Notes: generated from the sequence alone by a model not told the origin. DNA of 64,000 bases from an uncultured Bacteroidia bacterium (GCA_943788195.1 CALSPH010000001.1:123673-187672), one strand, 5' to 3'; counted from the first letter of the stretch, positions 1,013-12,894 are shown. Program-made: numbers and translations.

Positions 1013-2581
1013 TTAATACGTCAATTTAAAATCAACTCTTCTGTTTTTTGCTTTTCCAGCTCTTGAAGTATTACTAGCTATTGGTTGAGTTTCCCCATAT
1101 CCAATAGTTGACATTCTTTCTGCTGTTATGCCGTGAGTTGATAAGTATGCTTTAACCGCATCAGCTCTAAGTTTAGAAAGATCTAGATTTTTCGCATCGT
1201 CCCCATCACTGTCTGTATGACCTTCAATCGAAACCTTAGCGTCAGGATATTCATTCAATATCTCCGCTAGTTTATCTAAATCATCAAATGAAGATGCTTG
1301 AATTTTATCACTGGTTGTTTCAAAGAAAATTCCTTTAGCAGCAAGTGCTATTTTCTTTTTCACTTCTTCCTTAATAACTGGACAACCTTTATTTTCTTTC
1401 GGTCCAGGTGTTGTTTTACAAACGTCTTCGTTGTCATATACACCATCTTTATCCGTATCTGGGCAACCCTCGTGGTCTTTAGATCCAGCAAGTGTTGGAC
1501 ACTTATCTTCATCATCAAACACGCCATCATTATCGCTATCCGGTCTTGGACAACCATCTCTTTCCTTTAAACCAGGAACATCAGGACATTTATCTAAATT
1601 GTCATAAACTCCGTCACCATCTGTATCTGGGCATCCTTTTCCTTCAGCTGTACCTGCTTTATTAGGACATGCATCTTCAGTATCCTGAATTCCGTCACCA
1701 TCCGTATCTGGACAACCACCAAATTCAGCAACTCCTTTAAGATTAGGACATTTATCTTCCGTATCAACAATACCGTCACCATCTGTATCCAAATCGCAAC
1801 CCGTTGAATCAACTAAGTAACCTTCTCTGGTTTTCTTACACTTATCATATTTGTTAGGAATACCATCGTCATCAGAATCTTTCAATTTCTTGATACCAGA
1901 TCCACCACCAGCACCAGCACCAAAGTGATACACAACACCTAAACTGTGATACATAAATGCATCGCTGTTTTTGTTTCTTTTATGCACTCCGTTCGACCAA
2001 GGGAAACCATCAAATACATCATTAAAGGTATAATTAAACATGGTTTGCAAACGCACACTGAAGTTATCTGAAAGGTTAAAGTTAAAACCTCCACCGCCAG
2101 CAGCAATACTATTTAACGGTTCTGAATAATTGTCCGGAATATTTACAATTCGTGAAAAAATATTCACGCCTCCAAAGGTGGCCTGAAGATATGGTTGGAT
2201 TAAAGCATCCGAAGAAATCAGCATATCATTTGCTAATTTAATTCTTACACCAATTTGTCCATTGATTATTCTTGCTCGGAATCCATTGAACTTTTCGGGT
2301 GCGGGTAACCAATCTGTTTTCCCGTAGTATCCTAAATCTCCAATTCCAAAGTTAATAATGGCATCAATAGTTGGATTGATGTATCTGCCTAAAGAGACAC
2401 CCATACCCTGATAATTTGGGGTTTCAGCAAAGAAAAGTGCTGATCCCAGATCACCTTGATATTCCATAATTCCACCATTTAACTCAATCCCCCAATTATG
2501 CGCGTTATTCTGAGCAGAAATGCCCGCATGGATGAAGGTTGAAAGAAATAGAATAAATGTAATTCGTAGTAGTTTTTTCAT
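1013..2581 (-). CDS. OmpA-family outer membrane protein with thrombospondin type 3 repeats
   Basis: Outer-membrane protein that probably tethers the outer membrane to peptidoglycan. Starting at the second ATG (ORF residue 3) gives a classic signal peptide, MKKLLRITFILFLSTFIHAGISAQ; the ORF track starts two codons earlier. Residues ~25-230 form a beta-barrel-like domain. Residues ~236-402 hold about six calcium-binding TSP type 3 repeats (DTDGDGI..DxxDxCP pattern). The final ~105 residues are an OmpA C-terminal domain with the peptidoglycan-binding signature (SIEGHTDSDGD, later NRRVDF). The barrel-TSP3-OmpA order is common in Bacteroidota. Transcription is monocistronic, bounded by the hairpin at 961-991. 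Several listed ORFs inside it are frame shadows of the repeats. Confidence 0.93.
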   Translation of the reverse strand: MKKLLRITFILFLSTFIHAGISAQNNAHNWGIELNGGIMEYQGDLGSALFFAETPNYQGMGVSLGRYINPTIDAIINFGIGDLGYYGKTDWLPAPEKFNGFRARIINGQIGVRIKLANDMLISSDALIQPYLQATFGGVNIFSRIVNIPDNYSEPLNSIAAGGGGFNFNLSDNFSVRLQTMFNYTFNDVFDGFPWSNGVHKRNKNSDAFMYHSLGVVYHFGAGAGGGSGIKKLKDSDDDGIPNKYDKCKKTREGYLVDSTGCDLDTDGDGIVDTEDKCPNLKGVAEFGGCPDTDGDGIQDTEDACPNKAGTAEGKGCPDTDGDGVYDNLDKCPDVPGLKERDGCPRPDSDNDGVFDDEDKCPTLAGSKDHEGCPDTDKDGVYDNEDVCKTTPGPKENKGCPVIKEEVKKKIALAAKGIFFETTSDKIQASSFDDLDKLAEILNEYPDAKVSIEGHTDSDGDDAKNLDLSKLRADAVKAYLSTHGITAERMSTIGYGETQPIASNTSRAGKAKNRRVDFKLTY

Positions 2582-2621
2582 TATCATATATAAAAAGTAA
2601 TTTGTTTCATTGTAATCTTAG

Positions 2622-2629
2622 CAAACGTA
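2622..2629 (-). promoter_or_regulatory. Candidate -7 box for the OmpA gene
   Basis: On the minus strand the site reads TACGTTTG, matching the Bacteroidota -7 consensus TAnnTTTG, about 40 nt upstream of the OmpA start. A TTTG that could serve as the -33 element is 25 nt further upstream, somewhat far. Assigned from consensus only. Confidence 0.4.
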
Positions 2630-2728
2630 CATAATTTTTTTTATAAATACACGTCAAAATAAATTGTTTAAGAAGATAACAAATTGTACATCAACCACAG
2701 ACAAATGACATTAACAATGCGACTAGGA

Positions 2729-3178
2729 CTAGTTTACAACCGTTAAGAAACTTCCTGATAGGCTTGAGCGGTATTGCTTAATCGGAAATTGAGCTGGAGT
2801 CTTCACCACAAATCCCCCGAAATCAAAACGGCTATCACAGCATGTTTTAAACTGAATTGAATCATAATTCCCACATTTAAGCTGTAAGGTCAGTGTATCT
2901 ACAAAGAGTTTATTACAGGCCGTTAAGGGCTGATAACTACATGTGCGGTCAAACACGCGAATAGAACCGTCAAAGTCATGCACCACAAGCAATCCATGAT
3001 AGCCCCCCGGTTCATAAAAAAAAGACCCTGGAATGTCCAAAAAGGGTGCTTTGAGCGCTAAATTAATGGTCGTATTTACTGGAACCTCGGGAATGGGGTC
3101 CAAATTGGTGTTCTTATCTCGTCTGCACTGAGGAAAACAAAGAATCAATAGTACTATATACCCAATCCTATGCTTCAT
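2729..3178 (-). CDS. Rieske-fold-like lipoprotein lacking the histidine ligands
   Basis: The listed ORF starts at 3223, inside the upstream gene; the ATG at 3178 gives a lipoprotein-type signal (MKHRIGYIVLLILCFPQC) and overlaps the 3-hydroxyacyl-CoA dehydrogenase stop by 11 bp. The mature part resembles Bacteroidota Rieske-like proteins: strands around GGYHGLLVVHDFDG, then FDRTCSYQP, a middle Cys, LKCGNYDS, and CCDSRFDFGG followed by PAQFPIKQY. In a true Rieske centre the ligands are CxH and CxxH; here the positions read CSY and CCDS, so both histidines are absent and a 2Fe-2S cluster is unlikely. It is the last gene of a seven-gene minus-strand run. Role unknown; the Rieske assignment is by pattern. 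Confidence 0.6.
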   Translation of the reverse strand: MKHRIGYIVLLILCFPQCRRDKNTNLDPIPEVPVNTTINLALKAPFLDIPGSFFYEPGGYHGLLVVHDFDGSIRVFDRTCSYQPLTACNKLFVDTLTLQLKCGNYDSIQFKTCCDSRFDFGGFVVKTPAQFPIKQYRSSLSGSFLTVVN

Positions 3179-4019
3179 AGTCATAAAATCCTTTACCTGA
3201 TTTTCTACCCCAAAATCCAGCATCTACTTTTTGTTGTTGAATTCTAGATGGACGGAATTTTTCGTCATAATTAAATAAGGCGTACATACTCTGTGTAACT
3301 TTCAGGTTAGTCTCAACCCCTATGAGATCCATTAATTGAAAAGCTCCCATTCTAAATCCGGATGAGCGCATCAAATCATCAATATCCGCATGAGTGGCTA
3401 CATTATCCTCAAGCACTTTGAGTGACTCTACATAGAAGTGCCTTGCAACCCGGTTCACAATAAAACCTGGGGCATCTTTCGCAACAATGGGTGTTTTACC
3501 TACAGATTTAACAAATTCTACCCCCCAATCTTTTAGCTCTACTGGGGTGTGGGCTCCTTGAATCACTTCAACAAGTTTCATTATATGAGCTGGATTAAAG
3601 AAATGGATCCCTACCACTTGTTTCGGGCTTTTTACAGCGGCCGAAATTTTGGTGATTGGAATGGATGATGTGTTTGTGGCTAATATTATATCTGGATTTT
3701 GATCCAGTAGCGTATTGAATAAACTTGCCTTTATCTCTAATTTCTCAATTACTGCCTCAATCACCAAATCTCCCTTCAAGTTTGCTACTTCAATTTCATA
3801 TTGAATATTTGCTATAGCAGTTTCTTTGATTTCCTCGGTAGCTTTACCAATCTGAATCGCCTTATTCAAATTCTTCTCAATGCTAGCCTTACCTTTATCT
3901 AAGCCAGATTGGCTAATATCATACAAAGTGACTTTGTATCCATGCATTGCACAAACCTGTGCAATACCTGCACCCATTACTCCGGCACCTGCTACTATTA
4001 TTTTTTCAACTTGCTTCAT
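3168..4019 (-). CDS. 3-hydroxyacyl-CoA (3-hydroxybutyryl-CoA) dehydrogenase
   Basis: NAD-dependent oxidation of (S)-3-hydroxyacyl-CoA to 3-oxoacyl-CoA, in beta-oxidation, butanoate or related CoA pathways; cytoplasmic. The N-terminus carries the Rossmann motif GAGVMGAGIAQ (residues ~8-18). The catalytic His-Glu pair is in GIHFFNP and MKLVEVI, and the C-terminal dimerisation domain begins near DAPGFIVNRV. At 283 residues it is the normal single-domain length of the Hbd/PaaH group; which substrate chain length it prefers cannot be told. It lies 3 bp after the EnvC-like gene and is probably co-transcribed. A glutaryl-CoA dehydrogenase-like gene at 35 kb could feed the same CoA metabolism, but the two are not linked. 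Confidence 0.92.
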   Translation of the reverse strand: MKQVEKIIVAGAGVMGAGIAQVCAMHGYKVTLYDISQSGLDKGKASIEKNLNKAIQIGKATEEIKETAIANIQYEIEVANLKGDLVIEAVIEKLEIKASLFNTLLDQNPDIILATNTSSIPITKISAAVKSPKQVVGIHFFNPAHIMKLVEVIQGAHTPVELKDWGVEFVKSVGKTPIVAKDAPGFIVNRVARHFYVESLKVLEDNVATHADIDDLMRSSGFRMGAFQLMDLIGVETNLKVTQSMYALFNYDEKFRPSRIQQQKVDAGFWGRKSGKGFYDYEA

Positions 4020-4022
4020 AAC

Positions 4023-5399
4023 TTATTTACGTATAATCCAATAGGCTGGATTCTGTTTAGTTTGATTGTGCCACAATTCAAAATGAAGTTCCGTAGCGTT
4101 ATTCTCCCCTGTATATATTTTCCCTAAACTTTGTTTCAAAGTCACCTTATCACCCGTTTTTACAAACACATTTGACAGTTTAGCATAAACTGTAAAATAA
4201 TCCCCATGACTCACCATAACCATATTTTGCATCCCTGGAATTTCCATCACGGCCACAACAGTTCCTGGAAATACAACTCTAGCAACGGTGCCTGAGGTAG
4301 ATAATATATTAACACCATTGTTATTTACACTAACGCCAGAGATAGTTGGGTGGGCGTGTGTGCCGTACTTCTCAGAAATAAAGCCATTGCTAGTTGGCCA
4401 AGGCAATTTCCCTTTATTTGCCAGAAAATTAGCCGTATTTACCTTATCTACGCTAGGTGTTTCAATCACTTTTTCTTTTGGAACCGCAGGTTTGGCTCCT
4501 GTAGCTTTTTGTTTTTTAAGTGCTGCTTTAGCACGATTTAATTTGTCTCTTGCAGTTTTCGTATTGACCCATTGGTTTAATGCTTTCTCATAATAAGTGA
4601 CGGCAGATTCGTAATCCCCTTTGTTGAAACTCTTGTCACCCAGATTTATGTATTTATCATATGCCTTTCTTTTACGCGCTTTCTCCAATTCAATGCGAAT
4701 CAATCGCTCAATCTCCCGATCCAGTTTTGCTTTGGCTGCCTTTTGCGCCTTCAGCTTTCTACGTAAGTCTTTCTCTTTCCCAGCTAATACATTTACTGTC
4801 TTCTGCTGTATTTGCTTGTCTTGCTCTAGTTTCTGTTTCTCCGTTTCTTTATCACCTATAATTAATTCCTTTTCTTGCTTTAAACCCGTTAAAACAACTA
4901 TACCCTCTTCAACTTCCCTTTTATCGTTTTCAATATCCAGTACAATTTGCTTTTGATATTGGGTTATTTTCTGCAAATACCTGAAACGTTGGAACAGTTG
5001 GTTGAAACTGGTTGAAGAAAAGATAAAATGCCAATTATTGCCCGTACTATTCTTTAAACGATATGTATTGGCTACCGATTTGGCATATTTATCTTTTTGG
5101 TTAATTAAATGAATCTTTATCCCTTTCAACTGTTGTTGTTTTAAGAACTCATCCTTTTGAACCCCTGTCAATTCATTAGCAAGTCCATCCAAAATTTCCT
5201 CACGTACTTTAATCAAATTGTTGATAGACCTCAATTCTTTTAAGGTTACATTTTTCTTACTTCTGGTTTGTCTTAAAATTCGATTGGTTTCTCTTATTTC
5301 AGCTAATTTAGCATTGCGTTGGCGTTCCAATTTTTTTCGATCCGTTGCCCAAGCAGCAGTTACAATGAACGCAAGAAACAAAATGATTACTTTTTTCAT
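4023..5399 (-). CDS. EnvC-like murein hydrolase activator (coiled coil, TPR, degenerate LytM/M23)
   Basis: Periplasmic protein expected to regulate cell-wall amidases during division. A signal peptide (MKKVIILFLAFIVTAAWA) is followed by a long charged coiled coil (residues ~20-245), as in EnvC. A TPR-like pair of helices (KSFNKGDYESAVTYYEKAL, ~255-275) and a Lys/Ala linker follow, then a LytM/M23 domain (~330-458). The domain lacks the metal-binding residues of active M23 peptidases: the HxxxD position reads NNNGVNI, and the first His of HxH is replaced in ATELHFELW. That is the hallmark of activators rather than enzymes. EnvC works through FtsEX; an ftsX gene is present at 12.9 kb. The internal TPR is unusual for EnvC. 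Confidence 0.85.
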   Translation of the reverse strand: MKKVIILFLAFIVTAAWATDRKKLERQRNAKLAEIRETNRILRQTRSKKNVTLKELRSINNLIKVREEILDGLANELTGVQKDEFLKQQQLKGIKIHLINQKDKYAKSVANTYRLKNSTGNNWHFIFSSTSFNQLFQRFRYLQKITQYQKQIVLDIENDKREVEEGIVVLTGLKQEKELIIGDKETEKQKLEQDKQIQQKTVNVLAGKEKDLRRKLKAQKAAKAKLDREIERLIRIELEKARKRKAYDKYINLGDKSFNKGDYESAVTYYEKALNQWVNTKTARDKLNRAKAALKKQKATGAKPAVPKEKVIETPSVDKVNTANFLANKGKLPWPTSNGFISEKYGTHAHPTISGVSVNNNGVNILSTSGTVARVVFPGTVVAVMEIPGMQNMVMVSHGDYFTVYAKLSNVFVKTGDKVTLKQSLGKIYTGENNATELHFELWHNQTKQNPAYWIIRK

Positions 5400-5402
5400 A
5401 CA

Positions 5403-6170
5403 CTAAATTCTTTTATAGGATGCTGGTATACGTGTGGGCAATGGACCAAAGGCTTCCAAATTCATATTACTTAATCGAATCTTTCCTTTAAAATTTTTCA
5501 GCCCATCTTTTGCTTTTAACTCAATTAACCCTGGAACAAATGCGCTGTCTACTTGCTCATAAGAAGAATATGAAAATCGGATGTTTTTTCCCGTTTTTTC
5601 CCCTCTAAAATAGCTATTCACAAGGTGATAATCAAAACTATCCAATTTAACTTTGTAAATGGATTTGGCCACAATCCGTTCTAAATAATAAAGCGCAGAA
5701 TCTTGGTTCAATTCATACAATGAATCAACCGGCAACAATAAATTGCCAAGTAGCAGACTCTGTGTGCTTTTTAAGGTAAGTTCTGCACCAACATAATTCC
5801 CAGCTTCATTCCAGCTAAGCTTCGAATATGACTTATCTAGTTTGTTTAAGACGGTAATGCTATCTTGATGCATGAAAATCCGTGCACCTTCTAAACCAAA
5901 TAATCCCACAGAAATCCAGATTACGGAATCCTTCTCCATTTTAATAACTGCATCCACTGACTTGCTTAATCCAGCTCCTTCAATATCAACTTTTGCCTTG
6001 GCAGAGTAAAACTGCCAGTCTGATATCGAAGCGCTTAATGCATCCATAGTAGACAATTTTTTGAAGGCTCTAGTGTCATTTGAGTTTTTTCTTGACTTGC
6101 AAGCAGATATGAAAACAGAAACGATTAGAATCCATAGAACCTTATACTGCCATTTAATTTGATATTTCAT
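5403..6170 (-). CDS. DUF4292 family lipoprotein
   Basis: A lipoprotein signal with lipobox VFISAC (Cys near residue 24) precedes a ~230-residue beta-rich domain. Repeated antiparallel strands, such as YSAKAKVDIEGAGLSKSVDAVIKM and VIWISVGLFGLEGARIFMH, recall the LolA/LolB-type half-barrel that DUF4292 proteins are thought to adopt. In Bacteroidota this family sits between a TPR lipoprotein and an EnvC-like LytM gene, exactly as here: its start overlaps the TPR gene's stop by 4 bp and it ends 3 bp before EnvC. A role in outer-membrane lipoprotein or cell-wall traffic is an inference from fold and context. Confidence 0.85.
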   Translation of the reverse strand: MKYQIKWQYKVLWILIVSVFISACKSRKNSNDTRAFKKLSTMDALSASISDWQFYSAKAKVDIEGAGLSKSVDAVIKMEKDSVIWISVGLFGLEGARIFMHQDSITVLNKLDKSYSKLSWNEAGNYVGAELTLKSTQSLLLGNLLLPVDSLYELNQDSALYYLERIVAKSIYKVKLDSFDYHLVNSYFRGEKTGKNIRFSYSSYEQVDSAFVPGLIELKAKDGLKNFKGKIRLSNMNLEAFGPLPTRIPASYKRI

Positions 6171-7834
6171 TTGCTGAATATGAGTTCTTTATAAAATGAG
6201 TTATTCGGAAACGTTTTAATCATACGAGATTTTAATGTTTCAAATTCTTCAGATGCCCCAGCTTTTCTTGCCTTAAACATGTGCGCTTCTACGATGCGAC
6301 TATTACCTTTATTCAATCCCTCCAATATATTCCAAGCATTAGATGAATAATCATCGGCAGAAATTAGTGCATATAATTGATTCATATATTCCGATTGTAA
6401 AGTCTTTAATTCCTGTTTCGTTTCTTCTATAAAAAACCCGCTGACCATTGAAATATAACATAGCTGCTCATTTACAGCATGGTCGAAACCTTTATTTGCC
6501 CAAGCCATTTTCAACTCCTCATTTACATTAATCTGTTTGCCCAAATAAAAATTCGATTGAGCCTGCAACACATGCGACTTACATCTTTCATCTTTAGTTA
6601 TGGCATAGGTTAAACCTTGATTTGCATAACTGTAGGCATCCGCAAAACTTCCCTGAGCCATTAAATTTTTAGCATGAAGGTGGTAATAGGAGACTATACT
6701 TGGATGCGTTTCAACCAAATTTAACGAAACAATGGCAGCTGCTACATATTTCCCTTGATTATATAACATATTCGACCATGCGATGGCTAATTTTTCATCG
6801 GATGGATTGGTTTTATATTTTGCTTCAAGGTTTTTGGATTCATCCACCTGCGCTCCAAATTGTTTTAAATAGAAATTAACATATGTTTGAGCTGCAGGGT
6901 CTTGTGCTGCAATGATTCGCATCGGTTCAAGAATAGCCGTATCTCTAATTTCAACACTTTCTACCAAATAACGTGTTTTAAGATTTGGGGCCAACATAGT
7001 ATCCATAGCTATTTTACGTAGTTGGATGATGTAATTAGGCCAATCCTTTTGAATGCTGTTAATCCGTGATTTAATGAGATAAGTATAACCGGGTTGATTC
7101 AATTTAGGTGCTAAAATATCGAGTTCAGCTTTCGCCTGACCATATTTTGCCTCATCAATTAACCCATTTACATACTTCTTTCTGTATCCAATATCGTTAG
7201 GGTATTTCTTTACCAATTTGGCCCAATTCTCGATTTTCCCCGGCCCATTATCTTGCAAGTCATAGAGATAATCAAACATCATCGCAGTTTGGTAAGAAAA
7301 GCCAAATTGTTGCTCAAATCTATTAAGTATTCGCTCAGCATCTGTAAATAGCCTTGCCTTTTCATAATAAAAAACAGTTCGTTTATAATGCATCCGTATC
7401 TTTGGGAAACTATCCATAATAGACTCAGATATTTTCGCGGCCTCCGATGAATTGCCAATACGGTAAATAATCTCAGCTTGTTGTTCCTTATAAAACGGAT
7501 TGTTGGGGTCACCAGAGAGTGCAATTTTGGACATTTTTATTGCCTCATTTGCGTTGTCATTACCTATTGCCATACGAGCCAGTTCATAGGCGCAGGCTGC
7601 ACAAGTTGCATCTTTTTCAAGGACACTCTCAAAAATAGATTTAGCTTTGGTCTTATTGCCAAGTATTTGCTCTTTTTTAGCCTCTATAAAGGCCGCTTTA
7701 AGCATTCGAGTTGAGCGTAGATTCTGTCCTGCTTCATGCGTGTGCCCATTATCTTTTGCCAAATTCTTTTTTGCTTTGCACGCAAAAAGCAACAAAGAAG
7801 ATAAACAAATGATATAGACAATTCTTCGATTCAA
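6167..7834 (-). CDS. Tetratricopeptide-repeat lipoprotein
   Basis: A lipoprotein signal (SSLLLFAC, Cys near residue 19) is followed by a helical protein of ~535 residues with repeated TPR-like units. These include AKSIFESVLEKDATCAACAYELARMA, ANEAIKMSKIALSGDPNNP and, later, KYVAAAIVSLNLVETHPSI with SFADAYSYANQGL. TPR proteins act as docking scaffolds; the lipid anchor would place it at a membrane surface facing the periplasm. It abuts the nucleotidyltransferase stop and overlaps the DUF4292 start by 4 bp, so the three are probably translationally coupled. No enzymatic motif is visible. Confidence 0.8.
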   Translation of the reverse strand: MNRRIVYIICLSSLLLFACKAKKNLAKDNGHTHEAGQNLRSTRMLKAAFIEAKKEQILGNKTKAKSIFESVLEKDATCAACAYELARMAIGNDNANEAIKMSKIALSGDPNNPFYKEQQAEIIYRIGNSSEAAKISESIMDSFPKIRMHYKRTVFYYEKARLFTDAERILNRFEQQFGFSYQTAMMFDYLYDLQDNGPGKIENWAKLVKKYPNDIGYRKKYVNGLIDEAKYGQAKAELDILAPKLNQPGYTYLIKSRINSIQKDWPNYIIQLRKIAMDTMLAPNLKTRYLVESVEIRDTAILEPMRIIAAQDPAAQTYVNFYLKQFGAQVDESKNLEAKYKTNPSDEKLAIAWSNMLYNQGKYVAAAIVSLNLVETHPSIVSYYHLHAKNLMAQGSFADAYSYANQGLTYAITKDERCKSHVLQAQSNFYLGKQINVNEELKMAWANKGFDHAVNEQLCYISMVSGFFIEETKQELKTLQSEYMNQLYALISADDYSSNAWNILEGLNKGNSRIVEAHMFKARKAGASEEFETLKSRMIKTFPNNSFYKELIFSK

Positions 7835-8848
7835 TTAGGTCTTAATGTTTGTACTGTAGTCACTTATACTCAGTTCTCTGGCCGAGCCATCCCAGGTAAC
7901 TTCATTGCCAATCATAGAATTTGTAAACTCAGCTTTCTTGATTTTGCATTTTTCCATGATTATACTGTTACTTATCTTACTATCTTCAATTACCGTACCT
8001 TTTCCTATACTAACGTGTGGACCTATAGTAGAATTGTTTATCGTTACCCCTTCAGCGATAAAACATGGCTCAATGATGGTGCATTGATCTCCCAAAGACT
8101 GTTGTGTCTTAAAGGCTACTGCATTGTGTTCTATTACTCGTTGATTAGTGTAAACGGTTGCATTTTTGTTTCCACAATCCATCCATTCTTTCACTGCACC
8201 CGGCTTAAATTGTGCCCCATCTTGTTTTAGGGATTCCAGCGCATTGGTTAGTTGATACTCCCCTTTTTCTCGTATGTCATTATCCAGCAAATACTGTAAA
8301 GCTGCTCGCAATTTCTGTCCATCCGTAAAGTGATATATACCAATAATGGCCAAATCACTTACAAACTCGGTTGGTTTTTCTACGAAATCTGTAATAACGT
8401 TTGATTCATTTAATTTAACCACACCAAAGCTGCTGGGGTTCTCAACTTTATGAACCCAAATGGTACCATCTAATGAGCTGTCCAATTCAAAATCGGCTAC
8501 AAAAAGAGTATCAGAAAAGGCGACAATCACTTCTCCTTCTAAATAATCTTTCGCACACATTACTGCATGTCCTGTGCCTAAGGGATCTACCTGTGGGCAG
8601 ATATGCCCTTTTGCACCTAAGCGTTTGGCGATTCCCAAGAGGTTTTCATTAATTTCATCTGTAAAGTCCCCTGTTACAAATGCAATATGGTTAATGGGCT
8701 TATTACACACTTTTGCAATATCCTCACAAAGCCGCTCTACTATAGGCTTTCCAGCAATTGGTATAAGTGGTTTAGCGGTTGTTAAGGTGTGAGGGCGCAT
8801 TCTTTTGCCCATGCCTGCCATGGGTACAATTATATTTATTCCGTTCAT
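7835..8848 (-). CDS. Sugar-phosphate nucleotidyltransferase with left-handed beta-helix
   Basis: Catalyses NTP + sugar-1-phosphate to NDP-sugar + PPi; cytoplasmic. The ATG at 8848 is preferred over the ORF-track start at 8887 because it puts the nucleotide-binding motif AGMGKRMRPHTLTTAKP at the N-terminus (residues ~10-26) and leaves 4 bp to the dut stop. Residues 1-230 are the GT-A-like pyrophosphorylase domain (FSDTLFVADFE carries the metal-binding Asp region, then EKPTEF). Residues ~250-320 contain hexapeptide repeats (AEGVTINNSTIGPHVSIG) of a left-handed beta-helix. The exact sugar cannot be assigned; UDP-GlcNAc or glucose-1-phosphate types are possible. It is part of the dut-to-Rieske-like run. 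Confidence 0.85.
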   Translation of the reverse strand: MNGINIIVPMAGMGKRMRPHTLTTAKPLIPIAGKPIVERLCEDIAKVCNKPINHIAFVTGDFTDEINENLLGIAKRLGAKGHICPQVDPLGTGHAVMCAKDYLEGEVIVAFSDTLFVADFELDSSLDGTIWVHKVENPSSFGVVKLNESNVITDFVEKPTEFVSDLAIIGIYHFTDGQKLRAALQYLLDNDIREKGEYQLTNALESLKQDGAQFKPGAVKEWMDCGNKNATVYTNQRVIEHNAVAFKTQQSLGDQCTIIEPCFIAEGVTINNSTIGPHVSIGKGTVIEDSKISNSIIMEKCKIKKAEFTNSMIGNEVTWDGSARELSISDYSTNIKT

Positions 8849-8852
8849 GTTG

Positions 8853-9287
8853 TTATTTTTTTCCAGTGTGGCCATAACCGCTAGCACCGCGTTCTGTTTC
8901 TTCTAAATGGTCTGTTTCGTCCCAGGCAATTTGCTCAAATTTTGCAATTACCATTTGTGCAATTCGATCGCCATTATTAATTACTAAGATTTCTTTGCCA
9001 TGATTGATTAACACTACTTTAATTTCCCCTCGATAGTCACTGTCTATCGTTCCTGGACTGTTTACAATACTAATCCCATGTTTCAGCGCCAAGCCAGATC
9101 GGGGGCGAATTTGCGCCTCGAAGCCTTGCGGCAATTCCAAATGCAATCCCGTAGAAATTAAATCTTGAGTGCCCGCTTTGAGAGAAATCGGCTCACTCAG
9201 GTGCGCATATAAATCCATTCCTGCGGATCCCCTTGTTTGATACTTAGGCAAGGGATTATTGGATGTGTTTTTAACCTTTACGTTCAT
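8853..9287 (-). CDS. dut: dUTP diphosphatase
   Basis: Hydrolyses dUTP to dUMP and PPi, keeping uracil out of DNA and supplying dTMP synthesis; a cytoplasmic homotrimer. All five family motifs are visible in order: [42 protein letters not shown] and [11 protein letters not shown]. The last differs slightly from the usual RGxxGFGSTG but keeps the Arg and Gly residues. The start at 9287 (MNVKVKNTS) gives a 144-residue protein of normal length; the ORF-track start adds 23 residues with no homologous function. It is first in the minus-strand run and has a candidate -7 box (TAAATTTG on the minus strand, 9302-9309) 14 nt upstream. Confidence 0.95.
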
Positions 9288-9347
9288 AGTATTTGTAAGG
9301 GCAAATTTAAGGGAATAGTAGAAGGGATATAGCGTTGGTTTGCAATT

Positions 9348-9380
9348 TTTGTACACAGAAAAGAGATTAGTGTATCTTTG
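9348..9380 (+). promoter_or_regulatory. Promoter of the small secreted protein gene
   Basis: A TTTG (9348-9351) and TATCTTTG (9373-9380) are separated by 21 bp, matching the Bacteroidota -33/-7 promoter pattern TTTG...TAnnTTTG. It predicts a transcript start near 9385 and a leader of about 55 nt before the ATG at 9441. Confidence 0.55.
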
Positions 9381-9440
9381 AATTTATAAATATCCCCATT
9401 TTTCCTTTGATGCCCTTAACTGATATATATATTTACTAAA

Positions 9441-9866
9441 ATGAAGCATTTATTATTACTCCTATTTCTGGCAGCATTCAGCGCTGCGAGCTATGCCCAA
9501 AAAAACGATTCTTTTTCAATTGTGGGTCAATGGCAAATTCAAGGTGACGAAGATGAAGGAAGTATGAGTCTAGACTCTTTGGGCTTCTTTTACTTCATTA
9601 CGGAAGAAATGACTATGGGCGGTGATTCTTTTATGATTGACGGCTCTTTGGCCACGATAAGCTATCAAGTGGTAGACAGCACCAGTCCAAAGCAAATTAT
9701 AGTTACGCTTATCAATTGGGACGAGAATGAAACCAAAATTATGCGTGGTATTTTTAAAGTAATTGATCAGAATACCATAAAAATGTATCTGAACACAGAG
9801 GATGAAACCCAACCTTCTAAATTTGACGAAGACGACTCCCCAATATTCATACGAATAACGAACTAA
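9441..9866 (+). CDS. Small secreted lipocalin-like protein of unknown function
   Basis: A clear signal peptide (LLLLLFLAAFSAASYAQ) precedes a 120-residue acidic, beta-strand-rich domain beginning SIVGQWQIQGDEDEG. The opening G-x-W and regular strand alternation resemble the lipocalin-like families of Bacteroidota, but no binding residue can be identified, so this is a fold-level guess. The gene is alone on the plus strand and its stop codon overlaps the stop of the convergent cytochrome gene by 3 bp, with no hairpin between them. Confidence 0.6.
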   Translation: MKHLLLLLFLAAFSAASYAQKNDSFSIVGQWQIQGDEDEGSMSLDSLGFFYFITEEMTMGGDSFMIDGSLATISYQVVDSTSPKQIIVTLINWDENETKIMRGIFKVIDQNTIKMYLNTEDETQPSKFDEDDSPIFIRITN

Positions 9867-10249
9867 TTATTAGGCGCTCCAGCGTTTTTCCAATCCTCAA
9901 AAGCTTTCAGTGTACAATCATCTAGCTTTGGAGAATTTTGTGGCATTGGGCTAACACCGCTTTCATGTCTCAGGCTTTGAATTAACTTCCCGTTCAATGC
10001 TGCATTTTGTATGTTCGTAAACCCCTCTAAATTAACCCCTCCTGAAGAAAACGAAGTGTTGTGACATGATCGACATTGCACATTAATAACAGGTAAAATT
10101 TCGGATGAAAAGGATCCCTGGACACTATCACAATTATTGCCGTTGTTGGCAGGGTACAGCTCTTCCTCAGTATCATAATAGCATGAAGGCAGCAAAAAAG
10201 TGATTACAAGCGATAAAGTTAGAATGAGTCTAGTCATTTGCTTTTCCAT
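9863..10249 (-). CDS. Single-haem cytochrome-c-domain lipoprotein
   Basis: A lipoprotein-type signal (TLSLVITFLLPSC) precedes one cytochrome-c-like module. The haem site is CRSCH (CxxCH), the likely axial Met is in SPMPQNS, and two further Cys (NCDSVQ, DDCTLK) bracket the module and could form a disulfide. The module is clearly paralogous to the C-terminal half of the next gene upstream: both share ILPxI..C..CH, GG(V/I)xL, L(R/K)HE.G, MP and DC....W. Starts at 10249 or 10237 are both possible; either overlaps the upstream gene's end slightly or is close to it. Expected to be an envelope electron carrier or redox sensor; the partner is unknown. Confidence 0.8.
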   Translation of the reverse strand: MEKQMTRLILTLSLVITFLLPSCYYDTEEELYPANNGNNCDSVQGSFSSEILPVINVQCRSCHNTSFSSGGVNLEGFTNIQNAALNGKLIQSLRHESGVSPMPQNSPKLDDCTLKAFEDWKNAGAPNN

Positions 10250-10898
10250 TATTAATCCATCTTTCAATTACAGTAATTTGGCAGTCTGGCAATTTTCCAG
10301 ATGGTGGCATGTTAGAGAATCCAACCTCATGCTTCAGGGCTCCCAATAAATTGCCACTATCTGCCTGAATTTTGATTTGAAAATAGTTCGTCAATGGGAT
10401 ACCGCCTGAAGGATTTGTTTTGCCATGACAACCCTGACAATTTTTTACTATAATTGGGAGAATATGAGCGTTAAACTTAAAACTATCGGTCTCACAGTCG
10501 TTGCATGCATTGGGCTTGGCCCCTTGCAAAATCCATTTAGCAATAATGCCCTTTTCCAAATCTGTCAAAGGTGCCCTGGGAGGGCGGGGCATTCGAATAT
10601 TGAGGTTAGACGAAGTAATTACTTGATAAATGTGGCTTTTTGCGGTATCCCCTGGTACGACATCACCAATGTTAATGATATCATTATAATTGGAAAGTGA
10701 AAGCGCACTATGGCATCCTGAATATGCACAGTTATTGATTAATATGGGCACCACGTCATTATAAAAATAACTTGAATCCGCATCACAGGGAGTCAATTTT
10801 ATCGTATTATCTTCCTCCACCGGCACAGGTTCCGGTTCGTGTTTACAGGCATAAACAAGCGTACCCACTAGCAATATTATGAGTAATTTATTCTTCAA
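10230..10898 (-). CDS. Two-module cytochrome-c-domain lipoprotein (CX4CH and CXXCH)
   Basis: A lipoprotein signal (ILLVGTLVYAC, Cys ~18) is followed by two haem-type modules. The first has NNCAYSGCHS, a four-residue spacer (CX4CH) instead of CXXCH, with a downstream RMPRPP as possible axial Met. The second has CQGCH and NMPPSGK. Cys pairs (CNDCETD, LPDCQI) recur as in the neighbouring single-module protein. Such domains resemble the planctomycete-type cytochrome c families found beside DUF5777 and YceI genes in Bacteroidota. Whether the CX4CH site carries covalent haem is not certain. It overlaps the DUF5777 gene by 11 bp, so the two are probably co-translated. Confidence 0.8.
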   Translation of the reverse strand: MKNKLLIILLVGTLVYACKHEPEPVPVEEDNTIKLTPCDADSSYFYNDVVPILINNCAYSGCHSALSLSNYNDIINIGDVVPGDTAKSHIYQVITSSNLNIRMPRPPRAPLTDLEKGIIAKWILQGAKPNACNDCETDSFKFNAHILPIIVKNCQGCHGKTNPSGGIPLTNYFQIKIQADSGNLLGALKHEVGFSNMPPSGKLPDCQITVIERWINNGKAND

Positions 10899-11829
10899 AA
10901 TCTGGAGATTTTAAGGTGAACACTCTACTAACATTAAACCCGAACATAAACTCTCCGTCTGCCCAACTTTGCGTGGTTTCAGTTATAAAACCTTTTTCAA
11001 TCATTGGGCTGCTATTGGTAAAATGTAATTGAAAAACATGCCCACCTGTTTCTATATCAAAACCGATGCTCAATGAATTTTTGTAGCGATCTAATAAACT
11101 CGATTTTTGCGCATAGAAGTATTCTACATTCAGGCTTGTTCTTTTTGTTAATTTTTTTCTAAGACCAAAACCCATTGCCAGTACATCATTATCCTCATCA
11201 AAGGTTGAAACTAAGTTTCTGTGAACTAGTGTAGGGGTTAATTGTACACTTAGACTATTGCTAAATTTACGTGCAAGTAAGAGTTGGTATGTGTAATTTA
11301 ATCTAGAAGTGAAATAGTTCTTGCGATTGGGATTAGCCCAACGTAATGTGTTCACACTAATAGTACTTACAACAGCTGCGGAAAGCCAATTTAGACCACT
11401 TTCACGTTGCCTTAAGAACTTGTACTTAATAAGTCCATCATAAGTTTTCTCATATGATGAACGGCCCACACCTATGGTTAAATCCTTGGTTAAACCATAC
11501 TCAAACCCAAACCGAGTGCTTGCTTGGTCTATACCAAACAGATTATATACTCCACCATTCACAGGACCAAATCGATGATTTATTCTAAAGTCCAAGACCC
11601 CATGATGTGTATTTTCAATACTATGTCCATTAATAATGCGTGTCGTTTTGAATGTTGCATTTACAATCGGTGCCTGCGCATTCGAATCTTCTTCCATTAG
11701 ATCATCAAGTAGGTCATCCTGTGCATATCCAATTGATGGAACAACCAAGAAACCTGTCACCAGGATTAATATGAACAGTTTATTTTTTATTGCAAACACC
11801 TTTAATTGTAACTTCAATTTTATCCGCAA
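10888..11829 (-). CDS. DUF5777 family outer-membrane beta-barrel protein
   Basis: A signal peptide (LFILILVTGFLVVPSIGYAQ) leads into an acidic linker and then ~270 residues of alternating amphipathic strands, ending with an aromatic residue pattern typical of outer-membrane barrels. The conserved family stretch GVLDFRINHRFG is present early. The ATG at 11829 overlaps the YceI gene by 50 bp; a GTG at 11799 in the same frame would give a shorter, more typical signal peptide. DUF5777 proteins have no proven function. Here the gene sits between YceI and two cytochrome-domain lipoproteins, so an envelope role linked to redox proteins is a reasonable inference. Confidence 0.85.
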   Translation of the reverse strand: MRIKLKLQLKVFAIKNKLFILILVTGFLVVPSIGYAQDDLLDDLMEEDSNAQAPIVNATFKTTRIINGHSIENTHHGVLDFRINHRFGPVNGGVYNLFGIDQASTRFGFEYGLTKDLTIGVGRSSYEKTYDGLIKYKFLRQRESGLNWLSAAVVSTISVNTLRWANPNRKNYFTSRLNYTYQLLLARKFSNSLSVQLTPTLVHRNLVSTFDEDNDVLAMGFGLRKKLTKRTSLNVEYFYAQKSSLLDRYKNSLSIGFDIETGGHVFQLHFTNSSPMIEKGFITETTQSWADGEFMFGFNVSRVFTLKSPDFEE

Positions 11830-12337
11830 TCTTTATTGCAACTACAGATGGTTTTTTTATATTAAAATCTTCTAATAGGACTTCAAATTTAGCATCTATG
11901 GTTGCCGTTGCACCAGCAATTTGCAATGTACCATACGTTGAAATATCTTTCGTAACACCGTGAATGGTTAATTTACCCTTTGTTTTCACTTTGTAAATAC
12001 TATCTTTTGCAAAATTAATTTTATTGATATCCAATATTTTTCCTTTGTAATTGGCATAGGGATAAATATCACTCTCCAGGTAATTTTCATTAAAATGCTC
12101 TTGCATCAATTTCTTCTTAAACAAAAAAGATTTAATGGTAACTTTAGCACTAATATCACCCGCATCTTGATCAAAAGCCAATACCACAGCATTGTTCACT
12201 GCTTTAATATCCTCTACTGTTGTATGACTAAAAAATGTAATTTTTGCTGTTGTGGTATACCATAATTGTCTCTTCACTCCACTTGTAAATGACATAAGCA
12301 TAAATACAATGCACAAGAATCTTACCCTAATCTTCAT
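11780..12337 (-). CDS. YceI-like periplasmic lipid-binding protein
   Basis: Predicted secreted protein with the YceI lipocalin-like beta-barrel, a family that binds isoprenoid-type lipids in a hydrophobic pocket. The N-terminal hydrophobic segment ends near FTSGV. The family order is visible: TAKITFFSHTTVEDIKAVN, then strands around DAGDISAKVTIKSF, the helix MQEHFNENYLESDIYP, and KGKLTIHGVTKDIS, followed by a terminal strand KIEVTIKGV. Length (185) is normal. It lies in an envelope cluster with an OB-fold lipoprotein upstream and DUF5777 plus cytochrome genes downstream; isoprenoid quinone handling would fit the cytochromes but is only an inference. Confidence 0.88.
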   Translation of the reverse strand: MKIRVRFLCIVFMLMSFTSGVKRQLWYTTTAKITFFSHTTVEDIKAVNNAVVLAFDQDAGDISAKVTIKSFLFKKKLMQEHFNENYLESDIYPYANYKGKILDINKINFAKDSIYKVKTKGKLTIHGVTKDISTYGTLQIAGATATIDAKFEVLLEDFNIKKPSVVAIKIADKIEVTIKGVCNKK

Positions 12338-12356
12338 TATTATTTTCCGTTGATTA

Positions 12357-12788
12357 CTATTGTATAATCAAACATTGTACCATGGTGATCGTTTTTAGAC
12401 CAATCATGTCTTCCTCCATATATCCTGTGCACTTACCTTTAATCACAACAATATCTCCAATTTTTGGTAATTTTTCCTTACTTAAAGCCGTTTTGTCAAA
12501 TATGCAATTCACTGTTTCATCCTCACCATTCCCTTTTATTTCTACCTTAAAACCATCCTCATCCATACTTTCAGATACCACCACTTCACCTTGAACAGTT
12601 ACAGCTTCATCTAGGTATTTCTTATCATATTCTGCATGATTTTTACCATAATTCACAATAAAGTCACTTGCCTGCATACACTCGATACTATCTTTTTTAA
12701 TTGTTTTTTCTGTATTGGTATTGGCTCCACAAGAAATCAAAAAAATACTTAAAAATATGCTCGTAACAGTTGTAATAAATCTATTCAT
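12357..12788 (-). CDS. OB-fold (tRNA_anti-like) lipoprotein
   Basis: Starting at the ATG 12788 gives a lipoprotein signal with lipobox FLISC (Cys ~20); the ORF-track start is 12 codons upstream. The ~110-residue mature domain has the OB-fold strand order seen in the tRNA_anti-like envelope family: VTVQGEVVVSESMDE, VNCIFDK, then IGDIVVIKGKCTGY and a closing strand. The name reflects fold only; no nucleic-acid role is implied for a lipoprotein. It heads the minus-strand cluster with YceI, DUF5777 and cytochrome genes, 19 bp before YceI. A -7-like box (TAGATTTG on the minus strand, 12822-12829) lies 33 nt upstream. Confidence 0.8.
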   Translation of the reverse strand: MNRFITTVTSIFLSIFLISCGANTNTEKTIKKDSIECMQASDFIVNYGKNHAEYDKKYLDEAVTVQGEVVVSESMDEDGFKVEIKGNGEDETVNCIFDKTALSKEKLPKIGDIVVIKGKCTGYMEEDMIGLKTITMVQCLIIQ

Positions 12789-12894
12789 TATGTGTGATTT
12801 TTGGTTAAAGGGCTTCGTCAACAAATCTACATAAAATTATTGACTGTAATGCTCTTTCTCTGCCTTAGAGAGTGCATAATGCTGTTGAAATGTT

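Follow-up and report, generated by a model that had tools for sequence, protein, structure and literature searches.

We analysed a 64,000-nucleotide stretch of the genome of an uncultured Bacteroidia bacterium (GCA_943788195.1 CALSPH010000001.1:123673-187672; hereafter the window), which carries a tight operon of five genes on the minus strand at positions 9863-12788. In order of transcription, sequence and Pfam matches assign these to an OB-fold lipoprotein (12357-12788), a YceI protein (11780-12337), a DUF5777 protein (10888-11829) and two putative haem lipoproteins, cytA (10230-10898) and cytB (9863-10249). The OB-fold and YceI genes are 19 nt apart, DUF5777 and cytA overlap by 11 nt, and cytA and cytB overlap by about 20 nt. 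The GTG at 11799 is possibly the true DUF5777 start, in which case this gene overlaps the end of YceI by about 20 nt. The five-gene envelope cluster proposed in an earlier note on this DNA is borne out by the five minus-strand ORFs, their Pfam matches and their co-occurrence across the phylum.

Upstream, the sequence TAGATTTG at 12822-12829 on the minus strand fits TAnnTTTG and is a weak candidate for the Bacteroidota -7 promoter element; the pattern occurs 106 times in the window against 89 expected, which is near chance frequency. The flanks appear unrelated to the operon, with dut downstream and a divergent ftsX-like gene upstream. The operon contains no known electron-donor or electron-acceptor gene. 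A convergent gene at 9441-9866 on the plus strand, ending inside the end of cytB, encodes a 141-aa secreted protein with no homologue in the stretches fetched from relatives.

cytA and cytB together contain three predicted haem-c sites, all encoded on the minus strand. The two in cytA are CAYSGCH (CX4CH; 10710-10730) and CQGCH (CX2CH; 10425-10439), and at both sites the Cys and His residues, as well as the Met-Pro that follows each, are invariant in 12 aligned cytA sequences. The single site in cytB is CRSCH (CX2CH; 10061-10075); the conserved motif in this family varies by lineage between CX2CH and CX4CH and is again followed by Met-Pro. The earlier note was correct in counting three haem sites but implied CxxCH for all of them, whereas CAYSGCH, invariant in the 12 relatives, is a CX4CH motif. 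cytA matches PSCyt1 (3.1e-6) and Cytochrome_CBB3 (3e-5). The match of cytB to Cytochrome_CBB3 is weak and below the cut-off (9.6e-3), and an all-against-all comparison groups cytB with cytA, indicating that the two families are homologous. Both proteins display the sequence signature of a c-type cytochrome, a Cys pair with His and a distal Met-Pro, and the conserved Met suggests that the haems are probably His-Met ligated. Of the solved proteins, FoxE matches the cytA profile best (8e-5), over a stretch that spans a haem domain, MPP and the Trp-Ile-x-x-Gly-Ala end. In a Foldseek search with the cytA model nothing reached significance, and the weak hits resembled cytochrome c6. The genome has PF01578 cytochrome c assembly genes at two places, and a search of it for ResB, also involved in cytochrome c assembly, found none.

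The lipid-anchor Cys of cytB is followed by an acidic stretch, CYYDTEEE (10160-10183, minus strand), which recurs as CYYDxEEELYP across much of the family. Export signals of Bacteroidota lipoproteins lie at positions +2 to +6 after the lipid Cys and take the form K-(D/E)2, Q-A-(D/E)2 or SDDDD/SDDFE (PMC5080379). The conserved acidic residues of cytB, at +4 and +6 to +8, resemble these signals, with the minimal published motif absent, and it is possible that cytB is exposed at the cell surface.

The DUF5777 protein matches PF19089 over the full model (310 bits, cut-off 23.1; 9.8e-93). Its predicted structure is an outer-membrane beta barrel of 12 strands (mean pLDDT 83) resembling the porin barrels OmpG, NanC, KdgM and FapF (E-values of about 6e-7 to 4e-5), matches whose modest TM-scores make only the general fold meaningful. 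A search of the barrel profile against PDB sequences gave no match. In the literature searched we found no mention of DUF5777 and nothing on YceI together with cytochromes in Bacteroidota. Since a 12-strand barrel is narrow for accommodating a whole haem domain, the haems would dock at the barrel mouth. In the window's own family, tandem pairs of DUF5777 genes are also seen (L068, L069, L077, L079, L081, L084, L085, L086 and L090).

The YceI-family protein, periplasmic and lipocalin-like, is recognised by Pfam (PF04264, 1.3e-14; 55.2 bits against a curated cut-off of 23.7) and by profile comparison with solved YceI proteins (5ixh, 1.3e-7). Other YceI proteins take octaprenyl compounds or ubiquinone-8 as ligands (PMC9113575). 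An isoprenoid quinone is a plausible ligand here, as it would fit the solved YceI homologues, and a quinone borne by YceI could plausibly either feed the haems or be re-reduced by them.

The OB-fold protein (tRNA_anti-like, PF12869; 1.5e-13) carries a lipobox (ISCG), as do cytA and cytB; YceI and DUF5777 have signal peptides without a lipobox. Calling the OB-fold protein a lipoprotein is therefore right for this genome but atypical of its family, in which a simple pattern search finds a lipobox in only 6 of 117 members. Typical relatives have a single N-terminal membrane helix, and some have a multi-pass domain. At three loci (L066:7144-8052, L083:4491-5420 and L087:4693-5613) a hydrophobic N-terminal region that is apparently multi-pass precedes the OB domain in one protein.

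We then asked how widely this gene set is kept. DUF5777 is present in 116 of 297 genomes (~40%) of a drawn Bacteroidota sample and in 90 of 97 genomes of the window's family and order. In 61 stretches (60 relatives and the window), the same-strand run containing DUF5777 includes a cytochrome in 50, YceI in 45 and the OB-fold gene in 40. The corresponding counts are 72, 71 and 66 in a set of 80 loci, ranked by similarity to the window's DUF5777 and hence biased towards it, and 35, 30 and 6 in 40 phylum-wide loci. Some genomes may belong to more than one of these sets. When the last two are pooled, a member of the cytochrome family lies within ~5.5 kb of DUF5777 at 110 of 120 loci, YceI at 103 and OB at 74, compared with 18 for the next commonest neighbour, a Reg_prop histidine kinase. 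Moreover, haem motifs occur in just 29 of 1,177 other, unlabelled ORFs shorter than 450 aa at the same loci. We therefore rejected a chance neighbourhood.

Gene content is kept while gene order is shuffled. The common order is cytA-cytB-OB-YceI-DUF, and OB-cytA-cytB-YceI-DUF and cytA-cytB-DUF-YceI-OB are also found, compared with OB-YceI-DUF-cytA-cytB in the window. The survey of co-occurrence called for in the earlier note thus reveals a gene set conserved across Bacteroidota without a conserved order, and strict gene-order conservation is rejected. Because order shuffles while content stays, inherited synteny alone is a poor explanation for the association. Some DUF5777 loci lack YceI or OB. 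At five loci where YceI is absent (L211, L215, L203, L202 and L205), a protein of 340-368 aa with two CxxCH motifs and only a weak Cytochrome_CBB3 match adjoins the cytochrome and DUF5777. Elsewhere (L091, L096, L097, L153 and L165), a second YceI lies upstream of cytA and precedes a larger protein (~930-1,040 aa), often with a further one of ~250 aa; in L097 the larger belongs to the Reg_prop/Y_Y_Y histidine kinases and the smaller to the LytTR response regulators.

In six genomes of another Bacteroidota order (L230, L232, L233, L234, L236 and L238), haem domain and DUF5777 are joined in a single reading frame. The fused frames, of 407-442 aa, open with a sequence resembling a signal peptide, which is followed by a CX4CH domain that has the Met-Pro and then by the barrel, and their N-terminal part matches the cytA profile seeded from the window (3e-7 to 1e-11). 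For one of the fusions (L234), the source genome is a single contig. At six of the loci examined, a cytB-like CX4CH lipoprotein is encoded separately, beside or near the fused gene. No other finding here speaks as strongly for haem domain and barrel working together as these fusions.

A second context comes from four loci (L075, L182, L201 and L210) at which family matches identify DUF5777 and a haem lipoprotein followed by a 4Fe-4S protein, NrfD and a small cytochrome c, the last assigned in L210 by motif only. L074 and L078 have genes of equal size in equal positions, some but not all of which were scanned for families. YceI lies upstream in L075 and L201; L075 and L078 encode EB_dh-domain lipoproteins with haem motifs, and L078 also a Crp-type regulator. 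In L075 the electron-transfer operon spans 2031-10397. The NrfCD-linked DUF5777 proteins form one clade (support 100/100) whose members represent three families, including one from beyond the window's class, and their operons are, on predicted gene content, associated with a quinol dehydrogenase. The window's DUF5777 falls outside this clade, in the set accompanied by OB and YceI (98/93), and the link to NrfCD therefore speaks to DUF5777 as a family and offers no direct evidence about the window. The window operon has no NrfCD genes, and the single NrfD match of this genome is on another contig.

The pairing of haem domain and barrel resembles the arrangement of Cyc2, in which a haem domain is fused to an outer-membrane barrel and which oxidises iron (PMC8406198). 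Cyc2 is defined by the motif AXPXFAR[Q/K][T/Y] upstream of CXXCH and by a 16-strand barrel (PMC8406198). As in Cyc2, the fused DUF5777 relatives have a small mono-haem c domain N-terminal to the barrel. However, they carry CX4CH, and DUF5777 sets are accompanied by YceI and lipoprotein cytochromes. We rejected an assignment of the window genes to Cyc2, since haem and barrel genes are separate, the modelled barrel has 12 strands and the Cyc2 motif is absent from the window sequences and also from the fused relatives. The fused proteins, as judged from their sequences, are Cyc2-like in architecture and belong to a different family.

In MtrAB and PioAB, an outer-membrane barrel and c-type haems carry electrons across the membrane, the large barrel being filled by a multihaem cytochrome. 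By contrast, the window encodes three haem sites in all, distributed over two small lipoproteins, and a small 12-strand barrel, with no multihaem cytochrome in a large barrel, and an MtrAB-type complex is likewise rejected. Electron transfer by PioAB is described in PMC6831781. DUF5777 would be an undescribed family at the core of a haem and barrel arrangement like those of Cyc2 and MtrAB.

Taken together, these observations led us to propose that the five genes specify a compact outer-membrane redox module of porin-cytochrome type, a reading to which we give even chances. More generally, the gene set probably represents a way, not described before, of carrying electrons to the outer membrane or across it. 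DUF5777 would form the 12-strand barrel in the outer membrane, on which cytA and cytB would dock as haem-c lipoproteins, jointly providing three haem sites, probably His-Met ligated. YceI would serve as the periplasmic carrier of a hydrophobic ligand, probably isoprenoid quinone-like, and the OB-fold protein as a membrane-anchored accessory. On the periplasmic side the barrel haems would exchange electrons with a soluble cytochrome c or, by way of YceI, with quinol; from the haems the electrons would go to or through the outer membrane. In this scheme we infer haem loading, complex formation, the sidedness of the lipoproteins, the YceI ligand, the direction of electron flow and the final substrate. 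The gene set itself is a robust observation, and its function is read from context.

The earlier note had suggested either electron transfer or redox sensing. The former is favoured by the phylum-wide conservation, the haem-barrel fusions and the NrfCD-tied barrel clade; the case for sensing is weak, as two-component systems are found at a minority of loci. A bolder form of the proposal, which we put forward tentatively and consider rather unlikely, is that these sets constitute a phylum-wide undescribed class of conduits, with a 12-strand barrel, one to three CX4CH/CX2CH haems, supply by a quinone-carrying YceI and fusions that arose independently of Cyc2.

Alternatively, the genes may form an outer-membrane antioxidant system, in which a quinol-like lipid carried by YceI quenches lipid peroxyl radicals, the cytochromes re-reduce the lipid and the barrel acts as anchor or channel. 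There is a precedent in Burkholderia, where the YceI protein BcnA and the cytochrome b561 LcoA protect against lipid peroxidation (PMC9113575), and in both cases YceI is genetically tied to an envelope haem protein. However, the window has c-type lipoproteins and a barrel in place of an inner-membrane cytochrome b561, which is absent from the operon. A haem-copper oxidase would suit such a role and is found in almost every sampled genome of the phylum, every DUF5777 carrier among them, but COX1 is near-universal (286 of 297 genomes, the few without it mostly from one family), making an association with aerobic respiration uninformative. In addition, some loci keep cytochrome and barrel without YceI, and the NrfCD and fusion contexts point to electron through-flow. 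We consider this explanation unlikely, though the best placed of the rivals.

Somewhat less likely still is a role in metal redox or uptake, in which a metal ion, for example iron or copper, enters or leaves through the barrel and is oxidised or reduced by the haem lipoproteins. The cytA profile resembles FoxE, an iron oxidoreductase, although the match is weak and at the level of the domain. In L240 (154-5950) the fused haem-DUF5777 gene lies behind genes for a cytB-like lipoprotein, a barrel-like protein, MbnP and an MbnH/MauG-type di-haem protein. Pairs of MbnP and MbnH/MauG-type genes are associated with copper. A sulfite dehydrogenase-type molybdopterin oxidoreductase is also encoded ahead of the fused gene in L240, and L241 has a similar layout. 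Iron oxidation by Cyc2 (PMC8406198) lends this idea further plausibility, but the MbnP/MbnH link was seen at only two loci and the window operon has no metal gene.

That the genes are merely co-regulated, with no common complex, would account for the variable order and for the occasional loss of OB or YceI, yet reordering across the phylum with kept content, together with the haem-barrel fusion, argues for a physical link of at least haem domain and barrel and makes this explanation improbable. Least probable of all is that the set senses redox state or a ligand at the outer membrane and signals to a two-component system: of 120 loci, 18 have a Reg_prop histidine kinase nearby and 16 a LytTR-like regulator, with OmpR-type pairs near a few others, but most loci, including the window, have no such genes adjacent, and the kinases more likely control expression.

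The porin-cytochrome redox module is thus our preferred reading of the operon. If it is correct, outer-membrane electron transfer in Bacteroidota would be far commoner than recognised and would rely on a small, tractable architecture. The DUF5777 set also gives YceI defined candidate partners, and the fused haem-DUF5777 proteins would represent a second case, besides Cyc2, of a haem domain joined to an outer-membrane barrel.
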